A stretch of DNA of 64,000 nt from Buchnera aphidicola (Symydobius americanus). GTDB taxonomy: Bacteria > Pseudomonadota > Gammaproteobacteria > Enterobacterales > Enterobacteriaceae. This document shows, piece after piece, positions 50,267 through 59,842 of the stretch; position 1 is the stretch's first letter; every line of letters begins with the position of its first letter. Made by a program: the position numbers and the translations under genes. The stretch lies in the NCBI RefSeq assembly GCF_964059135.1, contig NZ_OZ060393.1, forward strand, positions 1 to 64,000. The letters are read 5' to 3'. The notes under the pieces were generated by a model. That model had not been told where the DNA came from and did no database searches. It saw only the letters and a program-made list of their open reading frames with translations.

Positions 50267-50482
50267 TTAATACATTCGTATTTTTTTTGCATTTTCTCTA
50301 GATATTTTTTTTAGGAGTCTTTTGATAGCAGATGCTTTTGCTCTTTTTCTTTCTGTTGTTGGTTTTTCATAAAATTCTCGTCTTCTCATTTCGGCTAATA
50401 TACCAGCTTTTTCGCAAGCTCTTTTAAATCTTCTTAGAGCAATATCAAATGGTTCATTTTCACGTACTTTAATAACAGGCAT
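50267..50482 (-). CDS. rpsU: 30S ribosomal protein S21
   Basis: Small basic protein of the 30S subunit. The 71 residues equal the E. coli length and read [20 protein letters not shown] then [21 protein letters not shown], nearly identical to E. coli. It is first in rpsU-dnaG-rpoD, divergent from tsaD as in E. coli. AAGGAG upstream of the ATG is a strong ribosome binding site. Confidence 0.98.
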
Positions 50483-50660: not shown

Positions 50661-51673
50661 ATGCGTATATTAGGTATTGAAACTTCTTTTGATGATACTG
50701 GTATTGCAATTTATGATGATAATATAGGTTTAATAATCAATGAAGTATATAGTCAATCGCATATACATTCTGTATATGGTGGGGTAGTTCCAGAGTTAGC
50801 ATCTAGAGAACATATATATAAATTGGTTCCTTTAATTAAATATGTTTTAAAAAAAAAAAAATTTTTTTAAACAATATTAATGCAGTAGCATACACTGCAG
50901 GTCCAGGATTACCTGGCTCATTACTTGTTGGGGCATCTATTGGTTGTGCGTTAGCTTTTGCTTGTAATATTCCTGCAATTCCTGTTCATCATATGGAAGG
51001 TCATTTATTATCTCCAATGTTAGAAAAACATTCTCCTCAATTTCCATTTATTGCTTTATTAGTTTCTGGAAAACATACTCAATTAATTCTTGCTCATGAA
51101 ATGAGTAAATATGAATTATTAGGAGAAACACTCGATGATGCAGTAGGAGAAGTGTTTGATAAAATTGCTAAAGCATTAAATTTAGGGTATCCTGGTGGTG
51201 CAGTTCTTTCTACTTTTGCAAAAAAAGGAATATCGGGTAAATTTAATTTTCCGCATCCTATGAAGTATCATTCGAATTTTAATTTTAGTTTTTCAGGATT
51301 AAAAACTTTTACTTTAAATCTTATCCGAAAAAATTTACATAATATTCAGTCTTTGTTTGATATTGCTCGTGGTTTTGAAGATGCTGTAATTAACATATTA
51401 TCACATAAATGTGATCAAGCATTAAAATATACAGGTTTTCGTCAATTAGTAATAGCAGGAGGAGTTTCTTCTAATAAAAATTTGATTTTACATTTAGAAC
51501 GTATGTTATATAAATATCGCGGTAAATTATTTTATGCTCGTCCTGAATTTTGTACTGATAATGCTGCTATGATTGCTTATACTGGAATGATGTATTTTAA
51601 AAAATATTCTTTTAAAAAAATTGATATTATTGTTCGTCCCAAGTGGAAAATTACAGAGATTCATCCAATATAA
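50661..51673 (+). CDS. tsaD: tRNA N6-threonylcarbamoyladenosine transferase TsaD, frame broken at A13
   Basis: Puts threonylcarbamoyl on A37 of ANN-decoding tRNAs; normally essential. The first frame (50661-50870) gives [20 protein letters not shown] and [12 protein letters not shown], then stops right after an A13 run (50849-50861). The remainder continues in another frame ([33 protein letters not shown] with the metal-binding histidines) to 51673. One added A restores a single protein of 337 residues, exactly the E. coli length. Such poly-A frameshifts in Buchnera are known to be partly rescued by RNA polymerase slippage. The family SGGHT motif reads SGKHT here. Confidence 0.9.
50849..50861 (+). 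repeat. A13 homopolymer, probable transcriptional slippage site
   Basis: Thirteen consecutive A residues followed by seven T residues inside tsaD. As written, the upstream frame stops at 50868-50870; fourteen A residues, or two fewer, would join the two parts of the gene. It could also be a sequencing length error. Confidence 0.8.
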
Positions 51674-51682
51674 TTTTTAATA

Positions 51683-52339
51683 TTAAAATTGTTTATTTGT
51701 ATTATCCTGAAGATATAATATCAAATCTTTTATAGTAATTAACGGCATAGCATGTATGTTTGAAAATTTAATTATTTCTTTTATATTAGGCATACTACCA
51801 TCTTTATTTGTTAATTCACAGATAACACTCATTGGTTTAAATCCAGCTAATTTCATAATTTCAATGGATGCTTCTGTGTGACCAGCTCTGGAAAATATTC
51901 CTCCTTGATGTGCACAAACAGGAAATACATGACCCGGTCTGTTTAAATCAGATGGTTTTGCTGTATCTGGTATAGTTGCTTGGATTGTTTTAAGTCGATC
52001 TTTTGCTGATACTCCAGTAGATATTCCTTTAGATGCTTCAATACTTACTGTAAATCCTGTTTGGTAGGTGCTAGTATTATTTTTTACCATCATTGGTAAA
52101 TTTAATTGTTTTCTTTTATTTTCTGTGATACACAAACATACAATTCCACTTCCATATCGAATAGTTAATGCCATTTGTTGAGTAGTCATATTTTCACATG
52201 AAAATACTAAATCTCCTTCATTTTCTCTATTTTTATCATCTAATATAATTATTCCATTTTTTGATTGTAAAGTAGAAATTGCTAATTTTATTCGATCTTT
52301 AAAATTTCCAAATTGTTTTAATGAATAGTCGTTCATCAT
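51683..52339 (-). CDS. ribB: 3,4-dihydroxy-2-butanone-4-phosphate synthase
   Basis: Makes the four-carbon precursor of riboflavin from ribulose 5-phosphate. The 218-residue protein (217 in E. coli) has the metal/substrate motif DDKNRENEGDLVF near residue 34-46, RPGHVFPVCAHQGGIFSRAGHTEA near residue 135-158 and the ELTNKDGSMPN block. All catalytic motifs are intact. E. coli ribB is controlled by an FMN riboswitch; the 143 bases before this gene (52340-52482) are AT-only and show no such structure. Only nine bases separate its end from tsaD. Confidence 0.97.
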   Translation of the reverse strand: MMNDYSLKQFGNFKDRIKLAISTLQSKNGIIILDDKNRENEGDLVFSCENMTTQQMALTIRYGSGIVCLCITENKRKQLNLPMMVKNNTSTYQTGFTVSIEASKGISTGVSAKDRLKTIQATIPDTAKPSDLNRPGHVFPVCAHQGGIFSRAGHTEASIEIMKLAGFKPMSVICELTNKDGSMPNIKEIIKFSNIHAMPLITIKDLILYLQDNTNKQF

Positions 52340-59758: not shown

Positions 59759-59769
59759 TTTTTTTTTTT

Positions 59770-59842
59770 TGGGTCGTGCAGGATTTGAACCTGCGACCAA
59801 TTGATTAAAAGTCAACTGCTCTACCAACTGAGCTAACGACCC
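59770..59842 (-). tRNA. tRNA-Lys (anticodon UUU)
   Basis: On the minus strand acceptor GGGTCGT pairs with ACGACCC, the D arm is GCTCAGTTGGTAGAGC, the anticodon loop CTTTTAA has TTT, and the T arm is GCAGGTTCAAATCCTGC. No CCA is encoded; an AAAA run follows directly. E. coli has lysV with val tRNAs beside gltX. Confidence 0.97.

Follow-up and report, generated by a model that had tools for sequence, protein, structure and literature searches.

A tsaD gene split at a run of thirteen A in Buchnera aphidicola of Symydobius americanus, one of three such cases found in the genome

Can a gene that is interrupted within a long poly-A tract still provide its protein? This question is raised by tsaD of Buchnera aphidicola from Symydobius americanus, for which an earlier note, based on the letters of the DNA alone, had proposed that a frame broken at an A13 tract could be repaired by slippage. 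We analysed the locus within a window of 64,000 nucleotides, which is the start of a single contig of 453,427 bases (genome label G000; plasmids, if any, are outside it). The tract was found as claimed: thirteen A residues occupy exactly positions 50849-50861 of the plus strand and are adjoined by seven T residues at 50862-50868. The 5' piece of tsaD (50661..50870, plus strand) starts with an ATG at 50661 and encodes 69 aa until a TAA stop at 50868-50870, right behind the T run. The remainder of the gene (50870..51673, plus strand) lies in another frame, which is open from 50870 and encodes 267 aa up to its stop at 51671-51673. When compared with the TsaD profile TIGR03723, the 5' piece matched positions 1-65 (E 2.1e-22) and the 3' piece positions 70-313, such that both pieces together span the profile of 314 positions; the 3' piece alone exceeds the cut-off (302 bits vs 296.1). 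Both the change of frame just past the tract and the conserved sequence on either side of it had thus been described correctly.

The tract is one base too short for the frame of the downstream part of tsaD. Re-reading one of its A residues rejoins the two frames and yields 337 residues with a single terminal stop and no other stop or frameshift, such that translation reproduced the length and the direction (one A too few) that had been put forward. Skipping two A, or re-reading one T of the adjoining run, also leaves the frames open, the latter again with 337 residues, but the products differ from the full-length TsaD of the protein database (P0001, see below). Two ways around the lesion were rejected. 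Reinitiation would have to use the first ATG, GTG or TTG of the 3' frame, an ATG at 50993 within an HHMEGH stretch, and would not yield a working TsaD, as residues 1-111 would be lost; a second intact tsaD copy was found nowhere in the genome, the third match being TsaB.

The gene is flanked by two open frames from the ORF list, both on the minus strand: one of 71 aa upstream (50267..50482), which we take to be rpsU-like, and one of 218 aa downstream (51683..52339), presumably ribB-like. A promoter scan returned 14 predicted promoters compared to 12.2 in shuffles, and a terminator scan one terminator-like site, on the opposite strand, compared to 0.3 in shuffles. A distant DNA search of a plasmid collection gave 15 records, each with 60-80% identity and none named Buchnera.

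By itself, the A13 run is no more than the base composition gives: overlapping A10 matches were counted 25 times in the window compared to 21 expected, and A/T runs of at least 13 bases once compared to 1.15 per 64 kb in simulations (first-order Markov, 60 simulations). No other A/T run in the window is as long as the A13, however, and the gene that it interrupts is the sole one found to be split when the window was screened with the ORFs of four congeners, all four of which backed the split of tsaD. To be within reach of the screen, a gene must have an ORF of 70-80 aa or more within the initial 66 kb of G004, G005, G006 or G010. The coincidence of the longest run with the sole split gene found does not look like chance. 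A frameshift screen of the first 66 kb of these four congeners pointed to three weak places (G005 40759, G004 41368 and G004 60982), each from one query genome, and the last of them sits near a T11. Long runs also occur in these genomes: two A/T runs in the first 66 kb of G006 measure 28 and 25 bases, and over the corresponding stretch the maximum is 13-16 bases in G004, G005 and G010.

All ten congeners searched carry tsaD in one frame. At the position of the tract one of them has an A10 and another an A12, both in frame, which indicates that A runs tend to arise at the site. Since none of the ten shares the lesion, a role of selection in its maintenance cannot be demonstrated, and the lesion is probably recent. 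We further compared the rate of evolution of tsaD with that of other genes in the window, using G004 as reference together with three outgroups, for which 40 of the 50 window ORFs were comparable. The relative rate was 1.01 for the N-terminal piece (14 of the 40 genes were lower) and 0.76 for the C-terminal piece (2 of 40 lower), while for the 40 other genes the median was 1.06, with 0.77-1.60 as the 5-95% range. In a TsaD tree, in which the G000 row is the full-length P0001, the end branch of G000 was not long (0.16 vs a median end branch of 0.28). Neither piece evolves faster than other genes, and tsaD shows no sign of relaxed selection. Such a pattern is equally compatible with a recent lesion, with rescue of the gene and with a false lesion.

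To place tsaD in the context of the genome, all runs of at least 12 A/T were listed (n = 32) and each was examined. A match to a known gene family crosses the run in frame in 24 of the 32 cases, among which the longest tracts have 18 bases (rsmI, genome positions 64686-64703, frame kept), 17 bases (yebC) and 17 bases (grpE). For grpE this verdict rests on the lower-ranked family NF010738 (19-185), the best-ranked family beginning at residue 44, behind the tract. In-frame tracts close in length to that of tsaD include dksA (T13) and fabG (A14). For rplJ, bolA and hscA the tract is within an open frame but falls at the edge of the profile, and these three stay without a verdict. Two runs were taken as intergenic (59759-59770, beside a tRNA-Lys gene, and 289317-289332). 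Broken genes were found at the other three runs. In addition to tsaD these are ribE, encoding riboflavin synthase, with an A12 at genome positions 86194-86205, and erpA on the minus strand, with an A14 at 167347-167360 (T14 on the plus strand); both lie outside the window and both are one A short. RibE and ErpA are each read in one frame in ten of ten congeners. The poly-A lesion is thus not peculiar to tsaD; the search turned up three genes of this kind in the genome. The ErpA model has another match of lower strength elsewhere in the genome, in an open frame of 138 aa, which is perhaps an IscA-type relative that would soften the loss of erpA.

If the frame were unimportant at long tracts, one would expect it to be lost at about two thirds of the 27 judged tracts, while this is the case at only 3 (P about 3e-9). 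With 24 of 27 judged tracts in frame, the idea that the frame is irrelevant there is ruled out. Selection does maintain the frame at long tracts, which argues against a cheap and general rescue.

The explanation that we favour, though we hold it at a little less than an even chance, is that the short tract is real and that the addition of an A by RNA polymerase allows it to be decoded in part. Put as a mechanism, a long poly-A tract that encodes a run of lysines in tsaD would have become one A shorter, such that the lesion is present in the DNA. RNA polymerase would slip backward on the A13 and add one A in a fraction of the transcripts. These slipped transcripts would encode the full 337-residue TsaD, and the gene would be partly expressed. 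The same would apply to ribE at its A12 and to erpA at its A14. The explanation supposes that the tract lengths are correct in the DNA, that slippage takes place at these tracts and that enough protein is made.

Slippage of this kind can be compared with sequenced RNA of Buchnera LSR1. There, 151 of 157 insertions were located in homopolymers, and the frequency of insertion increased exponentially with the length of the run, which reached 11 bases at most in that study; homopolymer deletions were fewer (16 of 57) and also rose with length, and the passages of the study cited here state that no case of a restored frame was observed (PMC5574713). For frameshifted genes of aphid and ant endosymbionts a review gives 12-50% corrected transcripts (PMC5009743, in excerpt), and a figure of 30% for slippage-corrected transcripts is quoted in a passage of a Blochmannia paper (PMC3017870). 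All three lesions in our genome need one additional A. This is the direction that slippage mostly supplies, and we counted it for slippage. The common direction is nevertheless weak evidence: with both signs equally likely, three lesions would agree in sign by chance in 1 of 4 cases, and an assembly that undercalls long runs predicts the same. Also for slippage count the lack of any other lesion in tsaD, its unaccelerated evolution and the single frame of all three genes in the ten congeners. Against slippage we counted that only 3 of 27 judged tracts are out of frame, such that rescue is not cheap, and that the tsaD lesion is shared by none of the ten congeners, as well as the existence of full-length database entries that perhaps stem from DNA with one more A.

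The latter point leads to the alternative that holds up best, an error of the assembly or its consensus. The real tracts would then be A14 in tsaD, 13 in ribE and 15 in erpA, and tsaD would be an ordinary gene. We consider this a real possibility, if a rather unlikely one. It agrees with the finding that each of the three runs, 12-14 bases in length, lacks a single base. On the other hand, 24 of the 29 other tabulated coding runs (12-18 A/T) are in frame, the rest being ribE, erpA and the three unjudged tracts, which indicates that at long runs the consensus can mostly be trusted.

The database entries bear on this alternative in both directions. P0001 is a TsaD of 337 aa that is identical to the C-terminal piece over the length of that piece, and P0122 is a full-length ErpA of 113 aa; both come from a contig of 453,447 bases, which is 20 bases longer than the present one. 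Among the matches listed (120 of 7999 for TsaD and 120 of 167 for ErpA) no row was identical to a TsaD or ErpA fragment. The presence of both full-length proteins on one such contig, with fragment-identical rows absent from the matches listed, speaks for an assembly error. However, P0001 and P0122 equal, letter for letter, the products of re-reading one A in the present DNA, and the 20 additional bases need not be in the tracts. Two congeners, G003 and G008, differ from database contigs in a similar way (434,704 vs 434,724 bases and 421,582 vs 421,682 bases, i.e. +20 and +100), and their TsaD is identical in both versions, where the pairing with the database contigs rests on the base counts and the identical TsaD. 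Offsets of 20 and 100 bases thus occur while TsaD stays the same, and the 20-base difference does not decide. Two readings of the full-length entries remain: either one gene was annotated across the tract, or they derive from another version of the DNA with A14 and A15. We lean to a joined annotation as the probable source. Passages of several papers describe that Buchnera and Blochmannia curators annotate one gene across such tracts (PMC3890641, PMC3017870, PMC4389277), and in the cited part of one Buchnera re-analysis the author counts such frameshifted genes as present and likely rescued (PMC7245037), which likewise stands against an assembly error.

To judge whether TsaD is essential here, the remainder of the t6A pathway was examined. 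TsaC makes the known substrate of TsaD. With two models TsaC was not found in the G000 chromosome, while it is present in 7 of 11 Buchnera genomes. In the two TsaC-bearing genomes whose gene order was inspected, tsaC lies between aroE and def. In G000 the gap between the aroE and def matches measures about 100 bp (about 385.18-385.28 kb) and tsaC is gone; it is also gone from the corresponding gaps of G009 (about 135 bp) and G004 (about 220 bp), and G002 has a tsaC remnant with broken frames. On the TsaD tree the absence of TsaC needs three changes, two of which are forced by well-supported branches. No TsaC from the 453,447-base contig was among the 120 of 370 database proteins listed. For TsaE, none of the 11 genomes had a match above the PF02367 cut-off; weak matches below it were seen in four of the 11, three of them in frames of 361-371 aa and one in a frame of 174 aa, and a search with TIGR00150 found none in G000. 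TsaB is present in G000 (128 bits vs a cut-off of 69.3). Similar gaps in the pathway are described in excerpts for other symbionts: tsaC is absent from the Buchnera of Cinara cedri and present in its co-symbiont (PMC9035817), and the loss of tsaE is discussed for a Serratia symbiotica (PMC5013485).

The earlier note had called tsaD essential. TsaB, TsaC and TsaD are counted as products of essential genes in the passage cited (PMC9035817), but with TsaC deleted and TsaE not found in this chromosome, the essentiality of TsaD cannot be taken for granted here. TsaD stays in one frame in three Buchnera genomes that lack a working TsaC, and G000 keeps TsaB, such that losing TsaC is not in itself enough to release TsaD. 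It is conceivable, though doubtful, that TsaD is under selection and is made only from slipped transcripts despite the lost TsaC and the lack of a recognisable TsaE. It might then work together with TsaB on a substrate from outside, provided by the aphid or a co-symbiont, or have another task.

The same pathway data can be turned into a further alternative, in which tsaD is a very young pseudogene whose decay is under way and tolerated as the t6A pathway is already incomplete. The loss of tsaC between aroE and def, the failure to find TsaE in the searches above and the absence of the tsaD lesion from all ten congeners searched are in line with such a decay. We nevertheless regard it as unlikely: G002, G004 and G009 are also without a working TsaC and yet read TsaD in one frame, TsaB is kept, the evolution of tsaD is not accelerated, and the same lesion is found in ribE and erpA, which belong to other pathways.

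Least probable of the alternatives, and improbable in our view, is that the ribosome rather than RNA polymerase steps back one base on A AAA AAA, which would yield the same protein. The shift needed is -1 for all three genes, an A AAA AAA heptamer is present in the right register within the A13 of tsaD, and the last bases of the ribE site are A AAA AAG, the classical dnaX-type heptamer. A stimulatory fold was, however, absent from the about 90 bases downstream: in a comparison with shuffles, which has pseudoknots outside its reach, the z values were -0.73 for tsaD, -1.17 for ribE and +1.55 for erpA, and a downstream hairpin as stimulator was rejected as no better than shuffles. Moreover, the site is not conserved, as ten congeners read tsaD there without a shift. 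Ribosomal frameshifting has been proposed by an author for lipA, fabB and bioA of Buchnera (PMC7245037), while the published cases at long A runs are attributed to polymerase slippage in the cited parts of two other papers (PMC5574713, PMC5009743).

The lesion is a true observation that extends to three genes in one genome, and its meaning depends on the base count in the raw reads. If the tract is real, a near-universal tRNA modification gene would be made only from slipped copies, and tsaD would form, together with a riboflavin and an iron-sulfur assembly gene, a trio within a single genome on which to test what amount of slippage a cell can sustain. If the assembly is in error, the three genes caution against the annotation of pseudogenes wherever 12 or more A stand in a row. 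The retention of TsaD without TsaC poses a separate and testable puzzle on the origin of the t6A precursor. Taken with this puzzle, tsaD, ribE and erpA provide a fair test set.

That slippage-rescued poly-A frameshifts have precedents in print for Buchnera and Blochmannia, as had been claimed, is borne out by Tamas et al. 2008 and Wernegreen et al. 2010 as cited in passages of later papers (PMC3017870, PMC4389277, PMC3890641, PMC5009743). In the passages of later papers covered by this comparison, none of tsaD, ribE and erpA is listed among the slippage genes. The present tsaD resembles the published cases in having one indel in a long A/T tract of an otherwise intact gene of an AT-rich insect endosymbiont, and in being constrained on both sides of the tract without faster evolution (1.01 and 0.76 for the N- and C-terminal pieces vs a median of 1.06). 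Essential genes are part of the published set, with dnaX, dnaG and pth of Blochmannia vafer named in the cited section (PMC3017870). Unlike some published slippage genes, which according to the same source are conserved between populations and species, the lesion of tsaD occurs in none of the ten congeners. The lipA, fabB and bioA genes of the Buchnera of Pentalonia share the genus and the lesion type, being frameshifted at low-complexity sequence and counted as present, but they are other genes, and ribosomal frameshifting was proposed for them (PMC7245037, in excerpt). A further parallel is given by the Buchnera Mp genes that curators joined across poly-A indels, which in the passage cited are also conserved on both sides, with the tract unaltered and the gene in two frames (PMC3890641). 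The break in tsaD is thus a known kind of lesion, and a poly-A frameshift in Buchnera will not surprise a specialist.
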